Assembly (NCBI GenBank): GCA_011319805.1
Contig: SJRY01000048.1
Location: 116,341-180,340, forward strand
Length of the DNA: 64,000 nucleotides
Reading direction: 5' to 3'
Source: Macrocybe gigantea
Taxonomy: Eukaryota > Basidiomycota > Agaricomycetes > Agaricales > Callistosporiaceae
Made by a program: the position numbers and the translations under genes. Shown here in pieces: positions 1,960 to 36,300 of this stretch (position 1 is its first letter; every line of letters starts with the position of its first letter). The notes beneath the pieces were generated by a model. The model saw only the letters and a program-made list of their open reading frames with translations, searched no databases and was not told where the DNA came from.

Positions 1960-4180
1960 TGTGTGAGTTTATTCGTTGCCTGTGTTGTCATCGTGAATGA
2001 GTAGAGCAGGATGCTAGACAACCTGTAGTGTGGGCTGGAAGTTCGTTAAGGACTGAAGCGAACGTGTCCGCCCATTTTATATGACTGAAAGGGTTGTCTG
2101 GAATAGGGTGTGGTCACCGTTGTGCACATTTCATTTCTCCCTTCCATATGTGGGTTTGCTCCCTTAATGAATATCTCGATATGAAGTCGCGGACAATGCG
2201 GTTTGTTAGACCCTGGCTTCGCGGGAATATGGAACATGGATTTCTTGGACATTCAAACGTGTCACCAGCCGATAATAAAGCACTAAAGGAAGATAGACTT
2301 TAGGTGTAAGCCGGGCTTTGGTCCACAGATCGGAGGACATGGTGAGGTCACGAAGATTTCCCGCATAATTAGAGAAAATTCACGGACACTGCGAAGTGAG
2401 ACGGGAAGTGCCTGTAAGGATATGATTCCCACATAAGTGAAACTCCCTGAGCATCTGGTCCCCGTTGCGTCGTTGGAGCTTGACATGTTGACATACAGAA
2501 CGGCCTCTCTAAAGGAGACTGTTGACAGTGCCTCGATTCCACGACCAGTCGTACTGGATCTTTGTGCTTACAATGGAGCGTTGTGGCCGTGTCCATCCTG
2601 AACTTGTAACGTACGGAGAACTGTGTTATTATCAGGGACCGTCCAAGGCCTGGAACAAAACGTAATTCATGTGAAGAGACTGACTCAGTGAGCAAAACAC
2701 ATCAGAGCATTCCACCGAATCCCCTGCGCAAAAATGTCTCGGGAACATGTTTTTACTTGGATATCGTCAGTCCATCCCTGTCGTGTTCTGGACAACGGCT
2801 AAGGACACAAACCCACAGAGTTTTAGTGTGGGATCGCTTGTACTTGAGCCCTGTCCATTGTCCCCGACATCTAGAATGTACAGCGCTTCGAATGAGCGTC
2901 CCCGGCTAGATTGTATAGGCTCACCCTCGGAATATCATATTTCATTTCATTGATGCCTTCTTTCATCAGAAATTGGAATTTGCGGCGGCGCTGATGAAGG
3001 TCCGTCCCACAGAATCGCCACAGCTTGGCATCGGGCATACGGTGCTAGATAAGGGCGCCCCGAATTTTACTGTATTGCACCCGTCGTACAAAGCGAAGGG
3101 AGAGCGACGTCTTTTCCTAAACTTCGCGAGGGTCAGATCAGGGACTGAAAAAGGACAGACGTACATCAAGATTTTCGCCACTTGCATGCCCGGAAAAGGT
3201 TAAATTGATCGACCTGCACTAAGGAAAAAGGTGTTGAATTTGTGCTGCTCGGTGGCTATGTTCGCGGACTCCTGACTGCATCACCCGGTCTCGAGATTAT
3301 GTTCAAGTGTCCAACGCCTGCAATTGTCATAGAAAACAGATCAGACGAAAGAGAAAACAAACCGGTTGAGATTTCCATGAGGCTGATAAACAAATTGGAG
3401 TTCTCCCACTTAGTGGCGAGTAGCTGTCTTGTAACTAACACCGACGTCTAAAACCGCTATGACCCAGGTTGCCCCCAAGTAATGGCAGCGCTGCACTCAG
3501 GCTTTGTACCCTATTGCTTTGTAGACAGGGAAAAAAAAGGAATGCAGCGCCAAGAGGCAGAGGGAATAAATTTACTTCCAGTTGCGTGCGTGATCATCTT
3601 ACAACAGGTGCCGCCAGAACGATCCGAAACCGCCATCTGAGTCATATTGCGATGGCGTATGCATAGTGGAGATGCATCCTCGCCACCAGCACGGGATTGT
3701 GATCCATCCATTTGGCACCTCAAAGTGGGCTGGCCTGATGAGAAGTATCTGATCGTATTTCGAAGACTGATCCAAAAGAACGTATCTTTCGTTCTAAGCG
3801 GGTTAGCTAGGCATGTTAGTAGACATGGGGGGATGTATGGAAAAGGAAACCGCCCAAGCCTCTCGTAGAAGGACAGACCACTTCCTTGTGGCGTCGATTC
3901 CTGGAATTACTGTACAATTTCATTCAATTCGTCAGTCACACATCACGGAGACCTCCGATTTGATGAAAAGTAACGCTCGTCACGCATAACGGAAGCAAAT
4001 GACGAAAATGTCTGTCAAGTCCGAGACCATGAATTTTCTTGCTCGTTCGACGATCTCCTCAGCTCTACGTGTTGATTTCAACATATCTCGAGGACAGGAA
4101 GGCATGAAAGTGTTCAAGATGAGTACAGATTGTGATTTATAACTCCTGAATTTTTACTTCTGCTCTGCTTCTGCCAGGGT
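1960..4180. other. No gene recognised
   Basis: Several open frames of 60-110 codons exist on both strands but none shows a domain, intron structure or homology I can name. It may contain upstream exons of the zinc-cluster gene, which I could not identify. Confidence 0.45.
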
Positions 4181-4190
4181 TCATTCCAGA

Positions 4191-5292
4191 TCATTCCTCG
4201 ATGTCAGAAGGCTCATTGTTGTTATGGCGCCAAAATGTGTGGGAGGAATATAACTTGTTTGGCCGCTTTTTCCTCTTCCCTTGCTCTTCTTCCTCTCTCT
4301 CTGCCTCCACCTTTTTTCCCTCGATGCTCGCTGGCACCAAGTCCCCCATTTCATCTGTGCGCACCTCCTCAACTTCGTCGGCACTCTCTGCAAGTGATTC
4401 AGATGAGAGTGTACCATTAGCAGATGGGATGAATCCCTGTGGTATGTTTCCACTGATCATGACATCAACCACTTTGCTGATGGGCAGCGCGCAGTCATCG
4501 TGGTCAACGTCCTCCAATTCCATGCCATCATCATGATCCTCAGGTACAGTCTCTGCTTCACTAGCAAGAGATGCTGCTTTTCCACTGACCAGCTCATTGT
4601 GGAAAATAGGGTCCTTCTCTTTCAGCTCTTGAAGTGCCTGTCGCACTTTGCGGCTTGTCAGGCATTCATAAGACAGATTCCAATCCTTGACAGTGCATAG
4701 CTCGAATGCCTGGGGATAGAATGAAGCCAGTTGCTCATAATTGTAAGTAAATTATATCTGCTCACCTTCATTATGAGCAACTGATTATTGATGGCATGAT
4801 AGGCATTCCACATCCACCACACACTCCAGTCATGAACTGTTCCGATCTGATTGTCAAGTGCACCAATCTTGTCCGTTGTCTAAAGAGAATGCATCATCTC
4901 ATTTACAATGTCTTTGTGGTAGGATCATCAAATTGATAGTTTCAATGGTCGCTGAATCCCAACATCACAGGGCTGATGTATGCTTGTACATCCTCCAGGG
5001 ATGAAGTCAAGAAGTATTGTTGGATGACTGTCCTTCAGAAAGCATCAGAATTTGGTCGAGCAGTGGACTGACCAGACGTCTATCTGCCACAGGCTCCTTT
5101 GTGATGGAGGAAGTCCGAGCTCTTGCTTTTTACCTTCAAAATATGGTGTGAGAATGTTGTCTATGAAACTTTGCATGGTCTTCTGATTTGACCAATAGGT
5201 TTGTATTCCCGAAAATTCGAGACAGAAACCAGCTGCTATGATGTTCTCGAAGTTGGGGGAATTTGATGATGGACAAGACCGGTCAGTCTCAA
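4191..5292 (-). pseudogene. DDE-type transposase fragment, 5'-truncated and decayed
   Basis: Minus-strand remains of the DDE-1-like endonuclease common in Agaricomycetes. In order: a stretch with FSGIQTYWSNQKTM, the conserved block WQIDVWSVH (first part near 5050-5170), then FIPGGCTSIHQPCDVGIQRPLK after an in-frame stop at about 5039, further stops, WNAYHAINNQLLIMK, and an intron at about 4709-4767. A last exon ends at 4191 with an acidic, Lys-rich tail. The DVWSVH and PCDVGIQRP motifs identify the family; the catalytic domain would cut DNA during transposition. Several nonsense codons make it inactive. The 5' part of the gene is missing: the frame stops at the inverted terminus of the Ty3-like element at 5293, and the other side of that element is KDZ sequence, not DDE. 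Confidence 0.8.
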
Positions 5293-5612
5293 CATGTGTC
5301 AGGGGACATCCCACGTTCCACCACCAAGTCCCCTCGACAACGCGACCCAAAGGTGCTTCACGCGACCGTCGTGCGCTTCGCGCCTTTCGCATCATGGCAC
5401 TCCTGAATAAGGCCGCTTATGCGCCTCATTTCCGCCTCACTCCCACCACGTGCCCACCTTGTGTAGTATAGTATATAGCTAGATAGTGCCCTAGAGGGGA
5501 ACCTTAGAGTATTCTCTTAGGTTTCCCCTCTAGGTGAGTCGGTGTACATATGTAGCTACCTCAAGAACTTAGGTTTTCCCTCTAGGTCCATCTGAGCCCC
5601 TCGTGCATATCG
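5293..5612 (+). repeat. Left inverted terminal arm of the gag-pol element
   Basis: About 320 bp that match, as reverse complement, the right end at 10275-10634, with small indels. It contains internal repeats of a CCTAGAGGGGAAACCTAAG-like unit in both orientations. The similarity runs past the arm into sequence that at the right end is the tail of pol, so the left arm looks like an inverted copy of the pol 3' tail plus terminus. Confidence 0.8.
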
Positions 5613-5786
5613 TGCGTCGCATTTAGGCTATCCTCAGCGGTTGCCCTAACAGTAGAATACTCTCCCCAACAGAGAGCTGAGCTCGCGGGTTGTGCCACAA
5701 TAGGCACCTTCGGAATCGACGACAGCGACAATGAAAGTCGCAGTTCCGCCTCCGCTGCCACTGCCCTCGACCTCCCCTCTCCTCAT

Positions 5787-7010
5787 ATGCCTCGAAGTGC
5801 GATGCCCGTGCCTGAACTGATGCCTGCCATGCTGATTTCGGTCGACGCGCCCGAAGGCGAAGGCCCCGCGACCTGCCAAGAGGTCCAATCCATTCGCGAG
5901 TCAGTGGAATCACTCTGCGCTCAATTAGCACAGGTCCTCCAATTGCTAGAACGTTCCAGACCCTCTTGCGCACCACCCGAAATGCATATGGACCCCCCAG
6001 GAGCTCACACGACTCCTGAACTGCCTGTCCCCAAAACTCCCACTACCGCATCACATAGCGCGACCTCTGTTAAACCCGCTGCCCCCAGCAACTTCAACAG
6101 CGACTACCAGAATGGTCGTTCATTCCTGAATTCATGCGAGCTGTACCTCGTGCTCATGCTGCAACAGTTCCCGCACCAAGTTGCACAAGTCAAATGGGCA
6201 ATGACATACATGAAAGGAGGGTGTGCTCACCAAGCTGTTGATTGCTGGATGCGCTTTGAGCGCACCAATGGTCACCCGAAGTTTGCGACGTGGAGCGACT
6301 TCGTCCAAGAGTTTCAATGCGAGTTCTGCATCCAGAACGAGCAACACGACGTGCTGATGAAGCTCGAAAGCACGTTGTATTATCAAGACAAGCAGACCAT
6401 CGATGAGTACACTGACGGGTTTCGTGACCTCATTGAACGCTCCGGATACATGGACAGACTTGGTATTGTCATCAAATATCGCAAGGGCTTGTGCGTGACC
6501 GTCCAGTCGCAAGTCACAAACATGCCAACCGGCCGCCCCGCTGACAATGATCCGGAAGCGTGGTATCATGCTGCGTGCACATGCGAAGAGAACCTTGAAG
6601 CAAACAAGATGTTCTCCGCCATCCACTCCGCACCCATGCGCATATCCGTGGGGCATTCTGCAACTGCCCCTGCACCCAAGCCTGCTCCGTTGCACTTCGT
6701 GATGAAGCCAAATCCAACTCCCCTCCCACCTGGCATTCCCATGGACATCGATGCCGCACGCTAGCACATGTGATCACCAGTTATCTGTCAGCGCTGCAAC
6801 CAGCCTGGCCACATCGCACCTAACTGCCCCCGCACGTTCGACGTATGCTACATGATGGTCGATGAAACCCGCGAAGCCGTCCAATCCATGCTCACAAAGA
6901 TCGACGTAGCGGACGGCCTTGCTGAAGACATTGCATCGGCCAAAGCGAATACGACAGAGGAGGAGGATTTTCAAATGCGCAGCGAGTGACCGACACGCCC
7001 TCGCTGCCCA
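5787..7010 (+). pseudogene. gag: Gag remnant with CCHC zinc knuckle
   Basis: A 325-codon open frame (5787-6764) has the Gag layout: variable Pro-rich N-terminus, then the conserved capsid-like segment with W..F...F and Y.....L motifs (for example TWSDFVQEFQCEF and TIDEYTDGFRDL). After a stop, the same product continues with a zinc knuckle CQRCNQPGHIAPNC at about 6790-6830. Gag forms the virus-like particle and binds the RNA. The stop between capsid and knuckle shows decay. Pol follows in the next frames. Confidence 0.8.
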
Positions 7011-7147
7011 CAACATTCATTTCGGACTCGGTCCATGTAAATAATGATACCTCTGATAATACAGAACCTGTCGTTACCGAAACACCTGAAGTCATGTCAG
7101 AAAAACCTAAAAAACCCGGACCGTGACCACACAAATGGGAACGCGCA

Positions 7148-10100
7148 GTGCCTCGCAAGTATTGCATTCACATGACAGACTCCAACTCCCTTTGCCTCAA
7201 GGTAGAGGTCCAAACAACGGACACTAGCGATGTCTTTTCGGTTGCCACACTCCTTGATTCTGGTGCAACCGGCCTCTTCCTCGATCGTGCATTCACCGCG
7301 AGGCATTGCATCACAACCCGACCCCTTACCCGACCGATACCTGTCCGCAACATTGATGGCACTCCCAACGAAGACGGCATGATTCGTGAAGTCGTGGATT
7401 TGGTGATTTGCTACCAAGGCCATACCAAGCATGCCATTTTCGCCATCACCGGACTCGGACACCAGGAGATGATTCTGGGCTTCCCCTGGTTAAAGTTACA
7501 CAATCCCAATATCGACTGGGAAAAGGGTACGATCAAAATCAATCGTTGCGAGCGCACCTGCCACACTTGCACGAACGATGTGAAAAGCGAATGCTTGCAT
7601 GAGTGAAAGACTGAAACCAGATGAAGGCCATGATTCGTGCTTGTCACATTGGCCTGATGCCACACCTCACCAATGTTGAGGACAAAGGTGAGGTCCCTGA
7701 AATGGGACGCGATCCGGATGAACTGACCGATGAACCCATTGAGGAGGGCGATCACCTCTTCATGATCCCCATGCATGATCCTCCAGCCGCATCCATTCGC
7801 ACGATGGTGAACATTTCGCAGCGTCTCATGGTAGCTCATGCAAAAAATAGCGAAGTGCACACCTTTCGCGACATGGTTCCTGATCACTTACACGAGTTCG
7901 AAGATGTGTTTGTGAAGTCATCATTCGACACACTCCCCGAATGTCGCACCTGGGACCACACGATCGAATTAGTGCCCAATGCGAAAGCGAGCCTGTGCAA
8001 GATCTACCCACTCAGCCTTGACGAGCAAAAGGAGCTCAATGCCTTCCTCGAAGAGCATCTTGCCACCGGTTGTATCCACCCGTCCAAGTCGCCCATGGCT
8101 GCTCCCTTCTTCTTCATCAAGAAAAAGGATGGCACCCTTCGTCCCATTCAAGATTATCATGCACTCAACGTGGTAACGATCAAGAACCGATATCCCATCC
8201 CTCTGATCTCGGATCTTGTCAATCAACTGTGAGGTGCGAAGTATTTCACGAAACTGGACATGTGATGGGGATACAACAACATGCGCATTCATGAAGGCGA
8301 TGAATGGAAGGCCACGTTCCACATGAACCATGGCTTATTCGAGCCGCTGGTAATGTTCTTCGGCATGATGAACTTGCCCGCAACGTTCCAGACCATGATG
8401 AACGACATCTTCCATGACCTTATCACGGAAGGCATGGTCTGTGTATACCTCGATGACATCCTGATCTTCACGAAGACGTGCGAGGAACACCATCACATCA
8501 TGCGCCTCGTACTAGAATGCCTTCACAAGCACAAGCTGTACCTCAAGTGGGAGAAGTGCGAATTCGAGCATACACATATCGAATACCTCGGTCTCATTAT
8601 CGAAGAGGGTAAGGTGTGCATGGATCCCATGAAAGTTGTGGGAGTTGTGGAATGGCCGACGCTACAAAACCAGAAGGAGGTTCAATCCTTCCTCGGCTTC
8701 GTGAACTTCTACCGCCGGTTCATCTGCGACTTTTCACATCATGCGTGTCTGCTCTTTGACCTTACCAAGACCAACGTATGATTCCATTGGGGCGAAGCTG
8801 AACAGATCGTGTTCGAGGCGCTAAGGTCCGCGGTGACCAGCGAACTGATTCTCATCTTCCCTGATGATGATCGCACCTACCACGTCGAAGCTGATAGTTC
8901 TGATTTTGTGACAGGTGCCGTCCTCTCACAGGAATCTCCTGACGACGGCAAGTGGCATCCGATTGCATTCTATTCAAAGAGCCTCTCGGATGTGGAACAC
9001 AACTATGAGATCCATGACAAGGAGCTGCTCGCAATCGTCCACACACTAGAGGAGTGGCGCCATTTCCTTGAAGGTGCGCATCACTCCATCGAGATCTGGA
9101 CAGACCACAAGAACCTCGAGTACTTCCGCATGGCTCAGAGACTCAACCGGTGCCAAGCGCGATGGTCGCTCTACCTCTCGCACTTCGACTTCTCGCTTCA
9201 TCACCACCCCGGCCACTCCATGGATAAGCCCGATGCACTCTCGCACCACGTGGATCATGGCGACGGGTCAGCTGACAATCGCGACATTGTGCTTCTCAAG
9301 CCAGAGCTTTTCGTGATTCGCACAACCGAGGCAATAGAGGTTGAAGGCCCAGAGAGAGGTTTGTTGCAGGAGATTCGGGCGAAGAATCGTGAGCAGGAGT
9401 TCGAAGAAGCCATCGTGAAGGCTGCATGAGATCTCGCACGCACTCGCGTGAAGGCCATTCACAGTTCCGACTGAACCAAGACCGATGGACTACTCTTCTA
9501 CCGCGGCCGCATCTACGTACCCCGTGACATGGATCTATGACAATGCATTATCGAATTATATCATGATTCGCGCGTCGTGGGCCATCCCGGCCATTGGAAG
9601 ACGCTCGAGCTGGTCAGTCGCAATTATTGGTGGCCCTCAATGTCATGCCAAATCAGACTCTACTGCAAGACATGTGACATGTGCCTCCGAATGAAGATCC
9701 AATGCAATGCGCCACAGGGAGAGCTCCACCCCCACGAATTCTGCCGTCGCGCTGGCACACCATCAGTGTCAATTTCATCATGGAACTCCCAGAGTCAAAG
9801 GGGTACAATGCGATCATGGTCGTGGTCGATAAACTCTCCAAGCGTGTGCACTTCGTTCCAATGCACACCACATGCACTGTGATGGGCACCGTGAAACTCT
9901 TCCTCGAACATGTCTGGTGACACCACGGCCTCCCGACTTGCGTCATCTCAGATCGCGGCATGCAATTCATCGCAAACTTCACGAAGGAGTTGTACGACAT
10001 CCTTGGTATCGAACATGCCATGTCAATGGCTTATCACCCTCAGACCGATGGCCAGATGGAGTGCGTGAACCAGGAACTTGAACAATACCTCCGCGTCTTC

Positions 10101-22141: not shown

Positions 22142-24259
22142 TGGACCTTGCCCAACAACTGGGCATTTGTCACAGTGACTATGCACTTCGAGTACGAAGG
22201 GGAACTAGTCGCTTTGCTCCTCGATATTATTGAGGTGGTGCAATCCCATTCAGGTGCCAATCTTGCAGCGGCGTTCACTAGGATTCTGGCAGACTACGGC
22301 ATCTCCGACAAGGTGAGTAAATCCTGATGACGATGATACTGATTCTGACCACTCATCAAGGTTCTCGGGGTAACGTGCGACAACGCGTCGGCCAACGATG
22401 CGATGATCGACGCTCTTGCCACCATACTCAGCCAATTCCCAGGACGTGCTGGCCGGGCTCGCTGTCTGGGGCATATCATCAATCTCGTATCAAAACTCGT
22501 CTTGCATCAGTTTGATGCACCAAAGCCAAAGAAGAAATTGCCCACTGACATAGCTACGAGTGACAGCACACTACCAGAGGCAGAAATCTATGCAGCGGCG
22601 AAAAAGGTCAAACCTGTGAGGCATGTGCTTTTCAAAGTAAGTGCATTTTGCATCTTCACTCTTTCACACCGTCTAACAATGCCCGCACCTTGCCGTCACC
22701 ATGTGGCCCTTGCCACGCATGCGCTCTTCTTACTTGGGCTTCTCACCATTGCCGACCGGTGCTCTACCATCACCCACTCCCTCCCCTTTCAATGACATCC
22801 TCGGCTCTCTCCCCATGGCTGACCGCTCTGCTCTCCCTTCATCCACCTCCTTTACTTCAACGACGTTCATCACTCCTAGCTCAGCAAATTGGCCAACCTG
22901 ATCAAGAACTCATCGACGATCCTTCTACCATGATGGAAAGAGATTGTAGGTGAACTGGCTGCATTGTTGATGAAGATGATAGGATCACTGGCAATCGGGC
23001 AATGAAGTTGAGGGACTTGGAATTGTCGGAGGGCGAATGGGAAGTTGTGAAGCAGCTACATGATTCACTCAAAGTAAGTTTTGTGCCTACACCTCATAAT
23101 TTCAATGCTAATAACTATCCAGATTTTCAAGACAGTGACACTCGAGTTTTCGAGTGATACACCATGTGCTGCGGCTGTCATACCCGCCATAGACAGGATG
23201 CACGCTGACCTCACTGCAGTGGCTACGAACACCGCTTATTCCTCTTTGCTGCGCGCCACCCTCGAGCTTGGAAATTCCCTTTTAAACAAATACTACTTGC
23301 TCACAGACGACTCCGAGGTCTACTGAATTGCAATCGGTAAGTGCATGAATAGTCACATTGCTGAGGGCCAAAGGCTAACCAAACTCATTAGTTCTGCATC
23401 CCAGACATAAACTCAAGTATTTCAAGAAGCAGGGGTGGGAGAAGAATTGGATCACAACTGCCGAGAAGATTGTGAAAAAGGAATTTCAGTGAAATTATGC
23501 GGAATACAGACCCCACAAGTCGAAGCCCTCACAGTCATCAAAAACGAAGGTTAGTATTTGTGAACTACCCATTAAACATTTATTGATATGTTAATAGGTC
23601 ACCAACTCATCTGACAACAGTAGCTCATCAGATGAGCACTCATTTTCCAGCTCTGAATCTAACGATGAAGATTTTGCCAATGAACTCAATCACTATTTGT
23701 CTGCTGGCCGCATCAAAGGCGTCATGGACCCTCTGAAATGGTGGCATGAAAACAGAGTGAGCTACCCTCATCTATCCCGCATGGCACGGAATTATCTTGC
23801 AATTCCTGGTATGTATTTCGTGTATATTTTTTGTCTATCTCAACGAAGGCTTTTTAGCTGTATTGGTCTCTGTCAAACAGGTCTTCAGTAAAGGCCGTCT
23901 CATTCTCTCCCATATCCAAAACCGCCTATTGGCACAATCAACCCGTGCCCTTTTATGTCTCAGAGCATGGAGTGGGTTGGGATATGTACAATTAGGTGAT
24001 TTGAAGGCCATGGCAGCTCTGCCTGATGCAAAGGCGGATGAGACATGGTTTGATGATGAATGGGGAAAGGTTTTAGAATAATATACATAGTCTATGATAA
24101 ACCCGACCCATACCCGCTGTATTGCAGACCCATACCCATATCCGCACCAACAGGTGCGGTAACCCGTACCCCTGCTGATGGGTATGGGTTGTCGTGGATA
24201 TGAGTATGGGTATGTACAAATATACCCATAGGTTACCCATGTCTTTCACTAGTTGCACC

Positions 24260-25162: not shown

Positions 25163-25170
25163 ATAGCCAC

Positions 25171-25330
25171 TAGTGTTGCCGCGGCTCGGCTAACCGCAAG
25201 TCGGCTCTGGTGAGCCGCGACTTCAGGTCTGACTCGGCTCAGCGGGTAAAGCCGAGCCGATTTATTCAGCTAAGCCTGTTTGGGCCGACTAAACTGGTCA
25301 CCAAGCCGGCTCTCGGACCTGTTCAGCGAC
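25171..25330. repeat. Left TIR and subterminal repeats of the cargo hAT
   Basis: 17-bp TIR followed by repeated short motifs: CGGCTCGGCT, AAGTCGGCTC, GTGAGCCGCG, GACTCGGCTCAG, AAGCCGAGCCG, AAGCCGGCTC. GC-rich against an AT-rich flank. Confidence 0.85.
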
Positions 25331-25447
25331 AGCAAAATGCTGTTGAGGCACATGCGTCGTCATCGTTCGGCTTATGTGGGGAGTCGAAATGTGCTGGTGT
25401 AGTGTAGAAAAAGTAACCTGTATTTCGTTCGTGTTAAATAGACAATA

Positions 25448-28400
25448 TTAGTTTGTTTCGTTCATCTCCTCGTCATAATACTGCCCCGTCATTCGTAAAA
25501 TGTCATCCATGATCGATGAATCAGCATCACCAGCCAGTCTGGCAAGCAAATCGCCGTCACTAGGCATCAAGTCCGAAATCGGAGTAAGGAGGCCTTGCGT
25601 GAAATTGATGCGATCCTTCTTGTATGCGAATTTGAGTAACTGAAGGGCTTCCATAAGCGCTGGATGAATGCGATTGCGTTTTTTTGTGTCCGTTTCGCTG
25701 GCCGATGAGAATATTCGCTCTGACGGAACAGCTGAGGCGGGTACAGAGAGATAGTCGAGTGCCATAGCGTAAAGGGTAGGAAAGACCGTTTCGTTCGCCT
25801 GGATAAATTCATGAGAGGTCATTCGAATATTCAATATTTATCAACTTACCTGCCAAAATCGAAGTGGAACAATTTCACCTATATTATGCAATGGGCCCAT
25901 GACGTACCGTTGAAATTCTTCCTCGACGCTCTGGGTTCCGGTCGAGATGCCACGTCCTTCTGTCACCTTCAACGTCAGTTTCTGCCAGGCGAGTTGTCGT
26001 GGAGCGACGCGACGTGGCTCAGCAGGGGCATTGCTCGCGATCCGCGTGACTGGTTGATTACGCCGATATTCCATCATCTACTTGAATATCAGCAGTCGAT
26101 CAAATAGAAACACAACCGAACGTACTGTTTCCTTGATCGCTTTCTCAGCCTCGTCAGCGTATTCCCGTTCCCAGTGGACTCGAAACCACGACATCCGCAC
26201 AGTCGGATTTAGAACTAGACAATGCTGTCAGTAAATGTCCACGTCACAATGGGCTACTCACATAATGCGATTGCATAGGCTCGGGTATCGTCGATTTTTC
26301 GGTAGTACTTGATAGCGTAGTCCAAACCGACATCAATGAAAGGACCAAGATGCGGTTTCTTCTCGCGGAGCTCTTCCCAGAGAGTCATGAATGTCTCTAT
26401 GGCAGGGATTGTATCACATAGTGTAGGTACCCGCTCAAACGATAAGACATTGTACACGTTATGTGGCACCTAAGGAGGAATAAATGAAAAAAGTCTGTTA
26501 ATAGAATGCTCCAGCTACAATACCTCGAGGATGCTCTTAATATCGACCAAAACCTGCCATTCACATGACGTTAAACGTAGTTTGTGAAGAGCTTTCTGTT
26601 CCGGCAACGACAAAAAGACTTCGATCGGCTATTTGGGATTCATTGTAAGACTGTGAATCCATGACCAAGTTGGATTGGTAATACATACCTGACGGAGATA
26701 AAGGAATCGCTCAACCATTAGGAACGTTGAATCCCATCGTGTCCTGACATCGAGGAGAAGCTCGTAGACGGTTAATAATAGGCCTTCGTCGTCCTTGAAT
26801 CTTCCGCGTGCGATGCCATCTTGAATGACTTGAAAGAACGCTTCTTTTCGTTGACCAGATGAACGCACAGCACAGCAAACATTCCGGACCAAGGCGAGCG
26901 GATTACGAGCCACGGCTTCCTCATACGTTTGACGAGCTTCGTTATCCCAGCTAGGAGGGGGTGGAATGGAGTGCAGAATACTCTCATCGAAATCTTGGTC
27001 GTTACTTGGATCTGAGGTATCCAAGAAAACGTTCGGGATCGCGGATGCGTCAAGGGGAATGGTAAAAGCATCGGATGTTGACGGTTCAATACAAATGTTG
27101 GCGCGTTCTTCTGGTTTGCTCGAGAACATCTTAATGACATGTGTCACACAAATGTGCACAACATGAGGAAAGCATCGTATACGATTCTCTCGGTGGTGAA
27201 ATGGGATATCGCGTTGTCGGAGGAGGGACTCGAGATGTTGAAGAGTAGTCACGTTGTTGGACGCGTTGTCAAGAGTGAAAAGTCCAACCTACTTAAATGT
27301 TAGAGCTAGCACTTCTTGTATGTAAAATGGCATTACCTTGACGGTTACTCCGACGCGGTCCAAAAGAGGGAGGACGACTCTAGCAAGACGTTCTCCGGAG
27401 TGTGTGCCACGCAGGTGATGAAAAGCAATCAGGGAACACTCGAGACTGAGAGCACGACTGTCACTGTCGCGGCTTATCCAATGCGCTGTGATAGCCAAGA
27501 ACGGGCGTAAAGATGACGAGGACCAAATATCCATCGTGAAGTTCACTTTTCCGGGAGCGTTCTGAAAAATCTGATGAATAACAAGACGGAAATATGTAAA
27601 TCAAAAACAAACCGCAAAGTTCTGCCTTAATTCAGGTAGAAGACGGTGTACTCGCTGCATAATCGATTCCCTTATCTTTGTCCGATGAGGAATGTCCGCA
27701 TCGCGCAGTGCTTCCCGCAGAAGGAGGAGCAGCGTCCGGAACTCTGGGCATTCAACGACGCTGATGGACTAAACGGGAATAACAGTCAGTGTCAGGCTGT
27801 CATGTACAAACTATGGGCCTACCTGATCATCGACGACGATGAATCTGACGAGATACTCATGAAACCTCTCGAGCGTGAAAGGTAGTCTGTTGGCGTCTAG
27901 TGCTGATAAGGCTGGAGCGTTCCTTGTATCGGCACTCTGAACTTTCCATCCCTTACTTGCGCAAACATTGAGGTACTCGTCCCGGTGCTTGCTGAACAAG
28001 TGGTCGCGAAGGGGAGAGTTCGAAGTCGTGGAACTAAAGACCTTGTTGATTCCGTTCTTCCTACAATATGGCAAGCATTAGGGAGATGAATTCAGGGCTA
28101 TTGAGATCGACTTACTTGCACAAAAGGCACACGGTGCCTACGGTCTTGTCCGATTTATCGAAGAAGTGTTGTATATCGTAGGCGATATTTCGTCCTTTGG
28201 ACTTCGCAGGGCCCGTGAAATTGACGACTGGAAGGGGTGAAGAGCCGGCTTCGGTTGCCAGACTCTCTGACGGTGGTGGCGCATTAGTAGAACCTTCATC
28301 GTCGCTGTACCGCTGGCCATCAACGCCTCCATAGTCGAACTCCTCACCAGAGGAAAGGTCGGGGGGAGATGCAGCTTGGCGTCTAGTGGGACGAGGCAGC

Positions 28401-28684
28401 AGAAGGGTCTGAGGCGGAAAGATCTCAGGCGGAATAGGACGCGGAGTGGGATCCGCTGAGGAAATCGTAGAAGGCTGGAGAGAATGTGGAGCAGACTGCT
28501 GGGCTGCCAGACGAGTGGTGGGGTGAGTTGGCCGTGAAGGGATAGCCCGCTGTCTCCTTGTCTTTATTCCAGCGCCACCTTCAGTTTCCGGAGTGTAAGG
28601 TTCGGGTGTAGAATCGATGGGAACTGTTGGTGGAGCATCCGTCGATGGCTCTGTAGTCGCTTGGCGTCGTGGTTTGCGAGGCAT
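25448..28684 (-). CDS. hAT-family transposase, ten exons, intact
   Basis: Exons: 28116-28684, 27823-28060, 27613-27768, 27337-27570, 26689-27288, 26524-26628, 26262-26469, 26126-26214, 25850-26077, 25448-25798. All introns are 42-60 bp with GT-AG ends; the total is 2,778 nt, giving 925 aa with no stop. Start chosen at MPRKPRRQ (28684); the frame is also open further upstream. Domains: Pro/Thr-rich N-terminus (1-170); BED-type zinc finger (TVCLLCKKNG ... LRDHLFSKH, about 186-220); hAT core with FTMDIWSS (Asp about 335) and LFTLDNASNN (about 402); CFPHVVHICVTHV (about 430); RTRWDSTFLMVERF (about 585); C-terminal dimerisation region FPTLYAMALDYLSVPASAVPSERIFSSAS (about 815-845). It should cut and paste the element by binding its TIR and subterminal repeats. 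All key blocks are present. Confidence 0.92.
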
Positions 28685-29091
28685 TACTGACTGGGTGGAG
28701 ATGGCACAAGTCCGAAACGCTCGCCTGGTCATATAAGGTGGAACATGCCACCTGATGACGCGGACGGGAGGGATTGAATGCGGTATGCATGCTACATCCT
28801 GCATGGCAAAGATAAGAGGCTCGATTACGTTTAGAGAGTATGCTGGCAAGGGACGTACTTGAATGTTCCCCTCCTCGAGGTCCTCCCTAAGCTGCATGTA
28901 TGGTGGTGCTTTATCATCATGCGTTCGGGTTATCTGACCTACTTGGGCGTCATTGACCCATTTATCCTCCTCATTGTCCGTTAACTTCTCAGACAGTCAC
29001 TTCATTTCATGACATTCAAGTTACTCAGGTACTATCTAATGTAAATCGACGCCTAACTACAATGGGATGGCAACTTGGTACACTATGAGGA

Positions 29092-29304
29092 GGGATGGTG
29101 GTGGTAGCGGACGAGGAGTGGAAGCGTGCGAAAGCGGAGTTGGGCGGCATCATAGGGTAGTGGGAAGTTGAAACGTCGGGTATTGCCCGAGTCGGGAACT
29201 CGGTCCCGGGCAATACCCGACGTTTCAACTTCCCACTACCCTATGATGCCGCCCAACTCCGCTTTCGCACGCTTCCACTCCTCGTCCGCTACTACTACCA
29301 TCCC
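29092..29304. repeat. Palindrome with 98-bp arms between the two cargo hAT genes
   Basis: Left arm 29092-29189, right arm 29207-29304, 17-bp loop. Only two mismatches are apparent, both at the outer end (GGTGGTGG against GGTAGTAG). It lies between the divergent starts of the transposase (28684) and the SPT5-like gene (29547). It could form a cruciform in DNA or a long hairpin in RNA. Being symmetric, it gives both genes the same upstream sequence. Confidence 0.95.
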
Positions 29305-29546
29305 CCTTCGTGGTGTGGTCGTCCACTCCCGGTAAGTCAACGTTCGTTCTAGTAGTCAGTAAATAGTTATTGCAATGAAAATGAGTGAGAAAAAAAATGA
29401 AAGGCAAAGAAGAATGCGTGAAATCAGTCATTGCACGACGTACGCGTCGTTCGCAATGATCATTGCCGTCGTTTTACCCATCGGTTTCGTGCGGCAGGAT
29501 GCTGATAATGATTCTTAGCCTCTACGCCGCACTCAAAGTTGCCGCA

Positions 29547-32052
29547 ATGCCCCGATACGTTTCAGACGCAGCTTTACGATTCTTCGACGTTGAGGCGGAG
29601 GTGGACGACCAAAATGACAGTGATGATGAGGAGGAGGACGATCTTGGTGAGCTGGACTGACTCTATGAAATGACACAAGATAACTATTCTATCTCCAGAC
29701 GACTTCATAGACGATACGATCCCTGATGTGCAAACTGGTCCCTCCGCACGCCGGTTACCGGAGGACAATGAAAACGAGGACGGCTTTGAAAGCCTGCTGT
29801 CGCGCATCGCACAGTACGCGCATCAACCTCGAAATACGTCTCTGTGTCCGCTGGACGAAGAAATCAGTGTGGGCGTTCCGTTGGAGGGCATATTGAAAGA
29901 CGATGACTATCCATTATGGCGTATTCCTTGCCGCGTAAGTGGACCTTAAGCATTTCGATGGCTACTAACGTTCTCTGTGTAGATTGGCGTGGAGGATCAG
30001 GCGTTGATGTCGTTATTCCTGGCAGCCAAACCTGAGCATCAACTCCGTGCTGCTTTCCATAGGGGTCTACCTCGCGGCTCCATCTATGTAGAAGCAACGA
30101 TGAATCAAGCCCTCCGCCAGCTCCTCAAAATAATCCCAGGTGTTTCTCATCGTACCCTGGAAATCAACGCAAAGCAGATCGACGTAAAGGATTGGCAGCG
30201 GACCTTGACGGTATTGGAGCCTGTGGATACTCCTACAGTCGGGTCATGGGTGAGGGTTCTCCGGGGCCGGTACAAGGGCGACGTAGGCTTAATCCGCAAC
30301 TGTGCCGGCCCCTTCGTAGGTGTCTTGCTGATACCTCGCCTGACTTTCAACGATCCGCCCCACCCGAAGAAGAGGAAACGATCAACTATTCCTCCCGTCC
30401 CCAAGCTATTCGATCCCTCCGCTCTCCCCGAACGCTTACACCTTCGGCTCAGGCACATGGAGGAGGATCAAGTATTCCAGCTTTGTGGTGTGAATTTGGA
30501 ACACGGACTCCTGTTGAAGGACTTCGACTCTCATTCCGTGACTCGTGCTGACGTTCACTTGTCCAGTGAGGCGTTTCTGACATACCATGTCAGCGGTCAT
30601 CCGGCGGTCCAGACTGCCAAGTTCATATGTCCCGCAGAGTGGAAATTTGCAGAGCAGGAAATTGTCGACGTCACATCCTCAGGCAAGCGAGGAACTATTC
30701 GCTCTCTTTCTGAGAATGGCGTTGAAGTAGATTTGGAAAATGGGGAGGGCTTGGTCAACGTTCCCTGGCGTGATCTTCGCAAAGCGATTGTGGCAGGAAA
30801 TTTCGTTGAAATGACGGGCGGACCACGTATAGGCCAAAAGGCGTGGGTCGTGGGCGTGGTTGATACAACTGTGCACCTTCTTGAGCAGCCGGATGGCCTG
30901 GCACAATCCATGGGGAGCAACTTAGTTGTAAGGACGCCTGCGATATTTCTATCACTATTTCTGATATCTTTCCCAGTCGTATTCCATGCACATCAATTGC
31001 CTAAGGATTATTGAGCCAGAAAATCTGCTAAACCCGCCACCGCCGCGCGAAACGACGCAGGACCGAGAGTACATTCCATGGAGGGGACGTGAGGTGTTGA
31101 TAACGAAGCAGCACCACTCCATGAAGGGCGCTCGCGCTATGGTCCAGGACGTCATATGCGATGAATCTACTGCAAGCGGCATCAAATTAGTTGTCCAACT
31201 TCTGCGCTTCAATCCCGCCGCCCCATTTCAAAACTACATGTTCGATTATGATGACGTGGTTGATCCACCGTAAGTTCTGGTTGCATTGGCATAAGTCCTT
31301 GCTGATTCGAATCTAACAGGTCCGGTCAAAAACTTTTCACCTGCCTTCCACATGGCAATCCTCGATTTAAGCCTCGCAATCACCCCGAGGCATCAAGCTC
31401 TTCTCATTCACTGGCCCCACCCACACTTGGGATGACAGGTGGTCAAACACCGATGCCAAACTTTGGCTTGTCGAGCCCAGCCTGGAATCCCAGCGCGTGG
31501 ATGCCCTATTCACCTCTCCCTGCACTGACTCCGCGACAACCTGCTCCCAGCCTGCATCCCAGTTCCACAAGCCAACAATCCGAGGCGCAGCATTTTTTGC
31601 TCGATCCACGTCTTGTCGGTCGTATGGTACGGGTCAAGGTGAACGGCGGCGGATACAACAAGAAGCTGGCAATCTCGATTGTATCCGATGAAAACGGCAA
31701 TGTCTCTCTGCGACACCAGCACTACAAAACGTCGGAAAATATCCCAACGCAATGGGTTACGGTTGAACCGGCTCATCCAACTCGCGACAACGGTCTTTTA
31801 GTGGTCGTGAGAGGCGAGCACCGAGGTAAATACGTGCGTCGCATCCATCACCGGTATGATGATGACACGGCAATCATCCGGTGCGCCGTCATGAACCGAG
31901 ACGAGAGCGGCGAGGACAGCCTGTCAGGAGAGATAGTCGAGTTGACTTCTGCGGACTTATGCCAGGGTTACGAGACGCCAGAGCAAAAAAAGATTAACGA
32001 TGGACTTATGCAGGCAATGCGCACCGAAGCTCGAAAGTTACGTGCCAAATAA
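29547..32052 (+). CDS. SPT5-like NGN/KOW protein, five exons, intact
   Basis: Exons 29547-29646, 29699-29934, 29983-30927, 30977-31269, 31320-32052; introns 48-52 bp, GT-AG; total 2,307 nt, 768 aa, no stops. Start at MPRYVSDAAL (29547) because the following FDVEAEVDD...DDFIDDT matches the acidic SPT5 N-terminus; an in-frame codon further upstream is possible. Domains: acidic start (1-50); NGN-like domain (PLWRIPCR ... FHRGLPRGSIYVEA, about 105-165); first KOW (GSWVRVLRGRYKGDVGLI, about 199-217); a Lys/Arg patch HPKKRKR; further KOW-like segments near 340-375 (GKRGTIRSLSENGVEVDLE), 470-500, and 630-690 (VRVKVNGGGYNKK, RGEHRGKYVRRIHHRY). A Pro/Ser-rich linker lies at about 545-610. SPT5 is the universal RNA polymerase II elongation factor; this is a divergent paralogue carried inside a transposon, not the housekeeping gene. 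Its role in the element is unknown. Confidence 0.88.
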
Positions 32053-32199
32053 TAGCTGTCAATACTACATCTAATTTCTAGGACTACGATACCACGACAT
32101 TTAGTATTACCATAATTCTTGGAAGTATACACGTAATCTAATGTGCATTTTTACTTTTTCTTCTCTGGAATGCCCAGCTCCATCAGTTCAGCGGCTGTA

Positions 32200-32350
32200 G
32201 TCGACTCCAACCGACTTGGCAAACGAGCCGCGGCTGTTCGGTTCCCCTGAGCCGACGTTAGCGGTTATTGCCGATCCGGCTCGGCTTCGGCTTGGCCCCA
32301 ACTCGGCTCCGGTTCTTAGTCGGTTCCGAGTTGGAGCCGCGGCAACACTA
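32200..32350. repeat. Right TIR and subterminal repeats of the cargo hAT
   Basis: Repeated GAGCCG, CGGCTCGGCTT, AACTCGGCTCC and GTTGGAGCCGCGG motifs, ending in the 17-bp TIR at 32334-32350. Mirror of the left end in motif content but not in exact order. Confidence 0.85.
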
Positions 32351-32358
32351 ATAGCCAC

Positions 32359-32642: not shown

Positions 32643-32962
32643 TGTTAGGCTAGACGAATCTTAAAGGACTCGGGCAGACTAAGTGCGAGAGTGGTTTAAG
32701 ACGATGGCAAATGGAATATTAAGCCTAGCGCTACTGGTACATCTGGGAGTCCTTATATACGTTACAGTACTCGAGCACGGACCACGGACTGCGCAAATGC
32801 TGTGGACTGTGGATGAGTAAGACTAAGGAAGAGATGACTCGGAGTGACTAGGAAAGTGGAATGACTCGATGGCTGCGTGCTGCGCAGTGTGATGGGGAGG
32901 ATAAGGGATGAGGGAAAGATAAGATAAGAAATTGAATAGTCCTTTGGGCGGCGTCTGTAACA
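32643..32962 (-). repeat. 3' LTR of chromovirus copy 2
   Basis: TGTTAGGCTAGACG to GTCTGTAACA in plus-strand reading. Variant with TCTTAAAGGACT and GACTAAGGAAGAGATG. Confidence 0.95.
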
Positions 32963-33000
32963 TCACCCTCTCTTTAGATTCACGTCCTCGCGAAAAGATC

Positions 33001-33398
33001 CTAGTCCAGCTGTCCCCACCCATTATTGGTCTCCCAGGCAGTTGCGGCACGTGGGGCCCACATACGAATGAGTTCTTCATTATAGGAGCGGATGTGGTGG
33101 AGCATGGTGGCGAGGAGTTTAAGTCGTCGGTTCTCTGTGCGAAGCATCTCCATTGCTTCGCGAAGCGCGATGCGTTCAGCTGCTGTGGGACCGGTTCCAT
33201 CAGGGTTCGCCCAGTCCAAAGGTGTGTGCAGACGGTCATAACATAGCGCAGATATGCGCCGAGTGTGATGGCAAGGGGATCCATGTAGTCGCTAGCGTTG
33301 AGAATCCTTGCTAGATTCTCGAGGTCGCTTGGGCGGTTGGGGGTAGGTGCGCGGCTGTCCTCGCTGCTGTCGATGCTGATGGGGGCGTTGGTGGTCAT
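33001..33398 (-). CDS. Small third ORF after pol, chromovirus copy 2 (frameshifted)
   Basis: Starts at 33398 in the ATGA overlap with the pol stop codon, MTTNAPISIDSSED. The sequence follows copy 1 closely through LAITLGAYLRYVMTV, then loses one C in a CCCC run near the HLWTG block. The rest of the ancestral product (ALREAMEMLRTENRRLKLL ... WETNNGWGQLD) continues in the next frame at 33001-33219. A 4-bp stop-start overlap suggests translation by termination-reinitiation. Function unknown; a hydrophobic stretch and a coiled-coil-like helix are visible. Confidence 0.65.
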
Positions 33399-36300
33399 GA
33401 TGTGCGATTTTTGGTCTTCTTTCCTCTTGTCATGGTCCTTTTATCCTGGTTCGTAGTCTTTTTTAGGAAACGGTCCAGAGCTTGCTGCGCATTCCCCAGT
33501 TCCTTCTCTTTGATCCATGTGTTTTCCTCGTGCCTGTACCCTTTCCATTTGACCAGGAATAGAGTTCCTCTTCCTTGTTTCTTTCTTTTTAGAATTTCTT
33601 CTACCTCGTACTCTTCTTCATCATTTATGATTTCAGGCGGTGGCGGCGATGGTCGCTCTTGGATCTTGAAACGGGGTCCTTTGTAGGGTGTGAGTAGTGT
33701 TTCATTGAACACGGGGTGTATCAGCTGCCATGATGCTGGGAGTTCTAGGTGATATGCTAAGGCGCCTTTCTTTTCGATCACCTTGAACGGTCCGTATCGG
33801 AGTGCCGATAACTTCTTTGATGGTCGATTGACTGTGATATTGGTGGCTTCGAGCCATACTCCATCTCCTTTCTTGTATTCACAGGCCGGTTTTTGTCTCG
33901 CATCGTAATTGTCTTTGGCCCGTGTTTGCGCATACTGCAGCGCAGCATTTGCTTCTTTCCGCATTTGGTTCATTTTTTCGACGAAGTTCTTTGCTGCGGA
34001 ATTGTTCCCTTCTGCTGTCTGTGGTTCTCCCTTCCAGGGGTGCATTCCGTAGTTGAGGTAGAATGGCATTTCCTTTGTTCCCTGGTGTGTTTTATCGTTG
34101 TATTGATACTCTGCGATTGCTATCCATTCCGCCCAATCGTCCTGTAGGTTGTTCGTGAAGCTTCTGAGGAAAGCTTCCGTCTCTTGATGGGATCGTTCCA
34201 CCTGTCCATCTGTCTGTGGATGATAGGCCGTTGATAGGTTTTGCTTTGTTCCAAGCAGTTTTAGAAGCGCTGTCATGAATCATGCTGCAAATTGGGGTCC
34301 TCGGTCACTGATGATCTTTCGTGGAATTCCATGAAGTCGCCACACATTGTCTCGGTATAGCTGTGCGAGGCCTTCTGCTGTGAGTTCAGTGTTTGTGGGA
34401 ATCAGGTGGATCATCTTGGTCAGGCGGTCTGTAACTGCGGCGATGGCATTAAAGCCGTTCGAGTTGGGTAGCGGTCCTATGAGATCTACTCCAATATCTT
34501 CCCATGGCTGTTGCAGAATCTCATGCGGGTGTAGTGGCGCATGTTTCTTTTGTCGAATGATTTTGTTTCTTTGACATGTTTTGCATCCATTAACATATTT
34601 TTTGATGTCTGTTAGCATTGATGGCCACCAGTAGGTGCAGTTTATGAGTTCATGCATACGATATTGTCCTGGGTGCCCTCCAATGGGAGTGTCGTGGTGT
34701 TCAAACATGATGTCTTCCTTTAGTTTGTTGTCTGGAGGGATGTAGATTTTCCCTCCTGCATATACGATGTGGTCTTCCTCTGTGAACCAGTGTGGTTTTT
34801 CCTTCAGTCCTATTGTTACGATCGTTTCTCTTCGTGTGCATTGTCGAATTTGTTCTATTCTTGAGGATTCGATCATTGTGATCCCCCTTGTCCGTATTGT
34901 TTCATTATTTTCTGCTCCCCCTTTTTGCAGGTGTTCATCCTCAAACATCATAAATTCGAAGTCTCGTTCATTATTCTCTTCCAGATGTCGGATGAATGTG
35001 GCTTCTTTGATCATTTGTATGTCATCCTTTTCTGCGAGGTTTTCTTTGTATCCTGCCATTCGTGATAAGATGTCTGCTTTTCCGTTCGCTTTTCCTGGTA
35101 CGTGTCGTAGTTCATAGTCGTATTCTTGTAATTTCAGGTACCAGCCAATCTGTCTCGAATTGAGTCGCTGCGGCTTCCGGAAGTATGATAGGTTCTTGTG
35201 ATCCGTCAATATTTCAAACTTCTCTCGAGCTTCTAGGAGGTATTGTCTCCATGTCTTCAGTGCCACCATTATTGCGAGCAGTTCTTTGTCGTAGATTTCG
35301 TAGTTCTGCTCTGCTGGAGTCATGCATCTAGAAATGAATGCGATTGGGTGCCACAGTCCTTTCTGCTGTTGTGATAGTACCGCTCCGATGGCATATCCTG
35401 AGGCGTCCGTTTCAACTCGGAATTTTCCTTCTGTTTGTGGTAGTGCTAGGATGGGTGCCAAGGTTATATGTCGAATTAATTCCCTGAAAGCGTCTTGCTG
35501 CTTGTCTGTCCACTGGAATGTCTTGTTTCCAGTCAGCTCCGTTAAAGGTTTAGCAACCTTTGCGTATCCTTTGATGAATCGTCGGTAAAAGTTTGTGAAT
35601 TCCAAGAACTTCTGTAGTTCTTTCTTCGTTTTTGGGGTTGGCCAGGATTGTACGGCCGTGATTTTCTCCGGTTCCATTTCTACCTTCCCTTCTCCTATGA
35701 TATATCCTAGTACTGGGACTTTTGACGATTCCCAGACACATTTTGGTCCTTTGATGAATAGGTCGTTCTTGTTCAGTATCTCCATGACTTCTATCGTGTT
35801 CTTTTGGAGTTCCTCTCGTGTTTGTCCGATGATTATGATGTCGTCCATATAGATTATGCACACTCTTCTTCGTATTTGGTCTTGGAAGAGGTTTGCCATC
35901 ATCCGGCTAAAGGTGCCTGGTGCATTGCATTGCCCAAAGTACATGACTGTCGGTTCGAAGAGTCCTCTTGCTGTTAGGAAGGCCGCTTTCCATTCGTCTC
36001 CTTTTCAGATGCATACATTGTTGTATCCCCAGATAATGTCGATCTTGTTGAAGTATTTTGCTCCTTGTAACACATCGAGGAGCTCGCTGATACGTGGTAA
36101 TGGGAACTTGTCCTTGACTGTGTATTTGTTTATTTCTCGATAGTCTTGGATGAGTCGCTTGCTGCCATCCTTCTTATTTCGAAAGAAGCAGGGTGCTGCG
36201 TAGGGTGATTTTGAGGGACGTATCTTCCCTGTTCTTAATCCTTCTTCGACAAAGGTATCTAGCTCCTCTAGTTCCTTTTGTGTCATCGGGTAGATCTTGC

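Follow-up and report, generated by a model that had tools for sequence, protein, structure and literature searches.

The 64,000-nucleotide window of Macrocybe gigantea DNA analysed here, part of contig C48 of assembly GCA_011319805.1, contains a complete hAT transposon of 7,180 bp (25171-32350) with two divergent genes: a hAT transposase and an SPT5-like gene that is headed by a palindrome and present, as the same cassette, in a second transposon superfamily, Plavaka. The element is bounded by perfect terminal inverted repeats (TIRs) of 17 bp (TAGTGTTGCCGCGGCTC, exact at 25171-25187 on the plus and at 32334-32350 on the minus strand) and the 8-mers on its two flanks (25163-25170 and 32351-32358) are identical (ATAGCCAC); short TIRs and a target-site duplication (TSD) of 8 bp are both typical for hAT elements. 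With up to three mismatches the TIR has two matches in the window, compared to a mean of 0.16 in shuffled sequence, and one of 100 shuffles gave two. Sequence scan, shuffles and flanks thus bear out the perfect TIRs and the exact duplication of the original prediction, which had been made from this stretch alone. The motifs CGGCT/AGCCG are crowded at the ends in the pattern of subterminal repeats (9 in the outer 200 bp of either end, 0.29 per 200 bp inside). Searches with the joined flanks as query for an empty allele of this insertion matched just the two flanks themselves.

The transposase gene (25448-28684, minus strand) encodes 923 amino acids in ten exons (28116-28684, 27812-28060, 27613-27760, 27337-27561, 26689-27288, 26524-26628, 26262-26469, 26126-26214, 25850-26077 and 25448-25798), according to a splice-consensus model; the intron positions of both genes of the element are splice-consensus predictions, and the predicted transposase introns have 47-60 nucleotides. 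The protein has the hAT dimerisation domain (Dimer_Tnp_hAT, PF05699; E 9.2e-15, 54.6 bits, cut-off 21.4), as expected of a hAT transposase, a weak match to hAT-like_RNase-H (E 0.16) and no Pfam match to a BED zinc finger at E up to 1. A complete spliced transposase gene had been predicted correctly, with a length given as 925 amino acids.

The SPT5-like gene (29547-32052, plus strand) has five exons (29547-29646, 29699-29934, 29983-30927, 30977-31269 and 31320-32052) that are separated by predicted introns of 48-52 nucleotides and join to 2,307 nucleotides encoding 768 amino acids, in full agreement with the complete NGN/KOW gene with four introns that had been proposed. Its NGN domain (PF03439) scores 23.0 bits with a cut-off of 22.4, and 31.2 bits in the Plavaka-borne version; the KOW domain of the window protein remains under the cut-off of 22.3 (19.6 bits), which its Plavaka-borne sister exceeds (33.1 bits). 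NGN, KOW1 and KOW2-3 folds are seen in a structure model of a relative, P0092 (alignment A2 comprises 35 of 94 database proteins and two window exons). Further features of the cargo protein are an acidic N-terminus, one CTR-like SPAWNP/TPAWNP motif and a basic KKRKR stretch. Among chains of solved structures it matches 'RNA-directed DNA methylation 3' (E 2.9e-10), with better scores for spt5 chains. We considered whether the cargo is the housekeeping SPT5 of this fungus, swept up at its own site, and rejected this: a much stronger SPT5-NGN match, the candidate housekeeping SPT5, lies on another contig (C50:437708).

The 41.2 Mb genome contains many copies of the element; as genome searches score best candidates only, all locus counts given here are lower bounds. 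Allowing up to two mismatches, the TIR has 33 genome matches (7 for the reversed pattern) and 17 of 20 stretches examined contain the hAT element: 11 complete young copies including the one in the window (7,177-7,180 bp, 99.4-100% identity), two further full-length copies of about 96% identity, both on C218, and four copies that are truncated or cut by a contig end (L020, L023, L024, L025). Exact 8-bp TSDs flank ten of the 11 complete young copies, the exception being L018, and mark nine distinct sites, since L016 and L017 share a TSD and may be one insertion assembled twice. Near-identical copies at nine distinct sites imply recent transposition. The TSDs ACTGGGGC and TCGCCTGG each recur across contigs, for L016, L017 and L020 (C322, C323 and C324) and for L015 and L024 (C243 and C242), respectively; parts of the assembly may therefore represent duplicated haplotypes or segments.

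The SPT5-like gene is present, whole or partially, at 16 of the 17 hAT transposase loci, and the remaining locus runs into a contig end before the cargo; six short fragments of SPT5 found by DNA searches only (C317:40192, C324:77668, C324:27806, C314:13294, C129:78080, C65:85678) were left uncounted. Thus, among these 17 loci no hAT copy without an SPT5-like gene was seen, the gene is not a housekeeping copy at a syntenic site, and, with 11 complete young copies, a unique fusion or assembly chimera can be rejected: the gene is cargo of a mobile, multi-copy hAT element, as the original prediction had it. The genome also has other hAT lineages; with the exception of a fragment adjoining the window element, their matches were not found within 10 kb of the SPT5-like loci identified (by eye). 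Of 12 young copies that cover the cargo, ten have an open cargo frame (including L010 with a 3-bp deletion), while L011 and L013 have 1-bp deletions. The transposase frame is open in five of 12 young copies; four of seven transposase lesions affect one run of five or six G at position 28361 and may be a sequencing matter.

DNA and protein searches identified a second set of SPT5-like genes, with 63-65% nucleotide identity to the hAT version. These are arranged head-to-head, at a distance of about 1.5-4 kb, with transposases of the CACTA-like Plavaka type (PF18759, over cut-off). When the search results are read together, an SPT5-like partner is found at 10 of the 21 Plavaka loci. Conversely, with the hAT type and C40 set aside, 16 SPT5-like loci remain, of which 10 have a Plavaka partner; the six loci with no partner are two at contig starts (C274 and C66), where the partner would be off the contig, and C234, C269, C205 and C259, where none was found. 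In total, 27 of 33 SPT5-like loci are associated with a hAT or Plavaka transposase or with a hAT TIR (16 hAT, 10 Plavaka and C40). Three of the Plavaka elements with SPT5-like gene are about 99.8% identical over 6.5-8 kb, indicating that this family is mobile too. Their right end reads ...GCTGATG, with TGATG in two copies, which agrees with the CATCA..TGATG termini given for PlavakaB in PMC12730594; the left end was not found in the stretches examined. The Plavaka-borne gene of L048 has an open frame of 770 amino acids and the same five-exon layout as the hAT version; on the reverse strand of L048, at about 4533-7736, an ORF (open reading frame) model shows an apparent third long gene beyond the SPT5-like gene.

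Homology between the hAT and Plavaka elements extends from the outer edge of the palindrome to the stop codon of the cargo (3924-6883 of the element, 2065-5020 of L047). An SPT5-like cassette common to two transposon superfamilies is therefore secure; neither the second superfamily nor the palindrome between the two genes had been part of the original prediction. C40 holds a further relative with 74% identity to the hAT version; it has many stops and has kept the right TIR with three mismatches; at the palindrome it is joined to ORFs that look retrotransposon-like by eye. Directly right of the window element, a minus-strand ORF (32762-33440) resembles an ORF next to the palindrome of this C40 locus (L046, 3913-4326) by eye, in a CYRRRPKDYS..SYLIF stretch, and retrotransposon-like ORFs follow in L046; the two ORFs may both derive from a single family of retrotransposons. 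About 1.4 kb left of the window element, at 23682-23813 (C48:140022-140153, plus strand), the initial half of a hAT dimerisation domain is matched that belongs to another hAT family, and similar half-domain matches are present at C48:82628 and on C205 and C252.

The palindrome between the divergent genes (29088-29307) measures 220 bp by BLAST and about 237 bp by local alignment, and its arms are about 91-93% complementary. A palindrome of about 208 bp occurs in the Plavaka element too, and the C40 relative has a shortened one of about 103 bp. Arm identity is about 91% within the hAT and about 94% within the Plavaka element and only about 64% between the two, indicating that the arms evolve in concert; the C40 palindrome is not part of the between-element figure, as its arms are just 27-39% identical to the others because the detected palindrome is half as long. 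One hAT copy (L014, C217:49242-57018) has the core of the palindrome in the opposite orientation to that in the window, a sign of exchange between the arms or of an inversion. As RNA, the palindrome is predicted to form a hairpin of -226 kcal/mol (shuffle mean -81). Just past the right arm follows a GTAAGT donor that is conserved in the hAT, C40 and Plavaka versions and opens a possible 5'-leader intron of the SPT5-like gene (predicted at 29332-29518, plus strand). We infer from this arrangement that the palindrome may be a shared two-way promoter with a leader intron. An N-terminal peptide can be read from the palindrome arm, in a frame that starts with ATGATG in hAT and C40; we rejected it as coding sequence and treat it as leader DNA, because in the Plavaka version this ATG is missing and the donor is in another phase (by eye).

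In a phylogenetic tree the hAT- and Plavaka-borne proteins are sisters (support 99) within a clade of six rows (99) that otherwise contains proteins of three named agarics and one metagenome protein; two Dendrothele proteins are sister to this clade (100), and 21 fungal SPT5 rows stand separately. The tree was a quick one, with 32 rows (30 of 94 database proteins and the two cargo proteins) and SH-aLRT values instead of bootstrap; P0091 fills only 43% of the columns, and seven rows have an odd letter make-up, four of these from the cargo clade and its Dendrothele sisters. P0095-P0097 were added after the tree, and later matches to the clade came from Laccaria amethystina, a second Panaeolus papilionaceus protein and a third Dendrothele protein. 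By this phylogeny the cargo is a member of a deep clade of SPT5 paralogues. Its nearest named relatives are proteins of mushroom fungi. An SPT5-like protein of Panaeolus cyanescens (P0094, 1292 amino acids) has a long C-terminal extension (residues about 746-1292), for which no match was found in the window or in L046-L050.

The hAT- and Plavaka-borne genes can be compared over 754 codons, with 56% amino acid identity and identities of 0.68, 0.76 and 0.40 at the three codon positions. A codon model gives an omega of 0.125 (dN 0.33, dS 2.68, 2dlnL 335 against omega = 1), which suggests divergence under constraint that is strong and long-term, if roughly estimated. For selection on the cargo for the benefit of the element, as originally proposed, this omega is the better evidence. 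The argument once offered, that the gene is intact while its surroundings have decayed, carries little weight: the insertion is a recent one, and the decay of resident copies looks neutral.

This decay is mainly at CpG sites. CpG changes account for 81 of 100 differences summed over 13 young copies (shared changes are counted repeatedly), and for 231 of 296, 233 of 300, 75 of 99 and 167 of 198 differences in four older copies; in L014 they are just one of 11, because its palindrome centre is flipped. The ratio of observed to expected CpG falls from 1.09 in the consensus to 0.69-0.74 in three old copies. CpG-to-TpG decay of this kind is as expected if the copies are methylated at cytosines, and stays short of hypermutation. 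PF00145 matches are present on four contigs of the genome. According to PMC12730594, hypermutation is not detected in Agaricomycotina and CG methylation of Agaricus bisporus is almost limited to transposons; active mushroom transposons are linked to low methylation in a section heading of PMC9674265. In TET/JBP searches of the genome no match passed the cut-off; just two PF12851 matches scored below it, on C37 and C244, where SPT5-like loci were not found.

The anatomy of the element and the sharing of the cassette between superfamilies are secure; the jobs of protein and palindrome have to be deduced. We see about an even chance that this complete, multi-copy hAT element encodes an SPT5-like protein that works for the element via the host RNA polymerase II (Pol II), aiding transcription through methylated chromatin. 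Through its NGN domain, Spt5 binds Spt4 and the clamp of the polymerase. Since acidic N-terminus, NGN, KOW, CTR-like motif and KKRKR stretch are kept, the protein would be imported into the nucleus and either rival or replace the host Spt5 on Pol II, and it would keep the genes of the element transcribed through methylated, silenced chromatin. The palindrome, acting as two-way promoter, would cause transposase and SPT5-like protein to be made together. Any transposon carrying the cassette of palindrome and gene would gain in fitness, and for this reason the cassette would have been passed between hAT and Plavaka lineages. That the cassette, in this way, amounts to a new class of weapon, a palindrome-headed supply of a Pol II elongation factor that belongs to the transposons and is exchanged between hAT and Plavaka for transcription through host DNA methylation, is a bolder claim that we make tentatively, at somewhat below even odds.

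Several observations weigh against such a role. KOWx, KOW4 and CTR Pfam matches are found in neither of the two cargo proteins, while they are above cut-off in a Coprinopsis SPT5 (P0078); for this reason the cargo is classed as an Spt5 paralogue and not as SPT5 itself, and its action may differ from that of a normal elongation factor. Structure was modelled for P0092, which is 33% identical to the window cargo, and not for the window protein itself. Omega is only rough because a dS of 2.68 is near saturation, and part of the history of constraint may predate the capture, or the lineage may have lived partly outside transposons. Young copies show CpG decay, thus the SPT5-like factor does not abolish methylation; also, the CpG share is that of this hAT family alone. 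In the cargo of young copies, 15 of 27 CpG changes alter an amino acid, compared to a neutral expectation of 0.64 (p 0.23); excluding L011, the cargo has 5 such changes among 12 (p 0.10) and the transposase 11 among 13, numbers too small to use. The lack of a significant deficit is, at the same time, what is expected for resident copies that are already silenced.

The constraint would be the same if the protein limited transposition, and a brake or decoy fits it equally well: a shortened Spt5 would sit on Pol II or Spt4 at the element copies and lower transposase expression, keeping the copy number tolerable. The missing KOWx, KOW4 and CTR-repeat matches are also what a dominant-negative variant might look like. 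However, a brake is hard to select among elements that compete by copy number, yet the gene is kept in two superfamilies, both with near-identical copies, and we regard this explanation as rather unlikely. Alternatively, the retained NGN and KOW domains for Pol II binding, together with the head-to-head position of gene and transposase in two superfamilies, could serve targeting: SPT5-like protein on transcribing Pol II would steer the transposase to open, transcribed chromatin. One adaptor would then have to serve transposases of different superfamilies, hAT and Plavaka, and this makes targeting a less probable explanation still. A passive passenger, captured once and copied along with the element at no benefit, agrees with the neutral-looking CpG decay of the cargo in resident copies and with the transfer of TET/JBP genes between transposons, which is called passive in PMC12730594; as omega is 0.125 over 754 codons, both frames are open and the gene is found at 16 of the 17 hAT loci and in two superfamilies, it is the reading hurt most by the data, disfavoured and of low probability. 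The match to the solved 'RNA-directed DNA methylation 3' chain would suit a host silencing factor like plant SPT5L/KTF1, trapped in or spread by transposons and still serving the host, but spt5 chains score better, a GW/WG run as AGO hook is absent (no such dipeptide in the hAT and two in the Plavaka version) and 27 of 33 loci are tied to hAT or Plavaka, so that we hold this for very improbable.

We return to the Pol II-directed element factor for a comparison with known systems. SPT genes were named as suppressors of the effects of Ty transposons in yeast. With canonical fungal Spt5 the cargo shares the acidic N-terminus, NGN, KOW1, KOW2-3 and a CTR-like motif; it differs in being shorter (768 amino acids, compared to about 1,000-1,150 for most fungal SPT5 among the best matches from 7,993 candidates scored), only 21-29% identical, in a separate deep clade, mobile and multi-copy, and in its unrecognised KOWx, KOW4 and CTR repeats. 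Plant SPT5L/KTF1 serves host silencing and has AGO-binding GW/WG repeats. Like this protein (also RDM3), the cargo is a diverged Spt5 paralogue linked to transposon chromatin; unlike it, the cargo has no GW/WG run. Like VANC of the Arabidopsis VANDAL transposons, it is encoded by the element and would counter host silencing; unlike VANC, which is described as sequence-specific (PMC10398659, PMC5735166), it would act through the polymerase.

The closest parallel are fungal DNA transposons that carry TET/JBP genes, among them hAT7, Plavaka and Kyakuja (PMC12730594, also for the following comparisons). In both systems a captured epigenetic gene stands beside the transposase, is common to unrelated superfamilies including hAT and Plavaka and is mostly open. 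Here, in contrast, the cargo is an SPT5-like elongation-factor paralogue and not a dioxygenase, the TSD has 8 bp and not 7, and a palindrome heads the cassette; none is reported at the ends of the homologous stretches compared in that paper. Plavaka (PF18759, CACTA-like), with its PlavakaB-like right terminus, is the second carrier here, the window element itself being a hAT. The words spt5, kow and ngn are absent from the main text of PMC12730594, and spt5 is unmentioned in the accessible parts of PMC8290104, PMC9674265 and PMC11244446. A transposon that owns an SPT5 or a palindrome-headed cassette was not found in open-licence literature; most subscription papers are outside this search and may hold a prior mention. 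The kind of system is known, namely fungal DNA transposons passing captured chromatin genes between superfamilies, while its SPT5-like cargo and palindrome cassette were not found in the literature searched. If the proposed role is true, the elements would counter host silencing at the level of the polymerase instead of the methyl mark, which would add a second tactic to that of the transposon-borne TET/JBP enzymes. With intact as well as decayed copies, and with two superfamilies, the genome offers natural material that makes it directly testable why transposons carry transcription factors.
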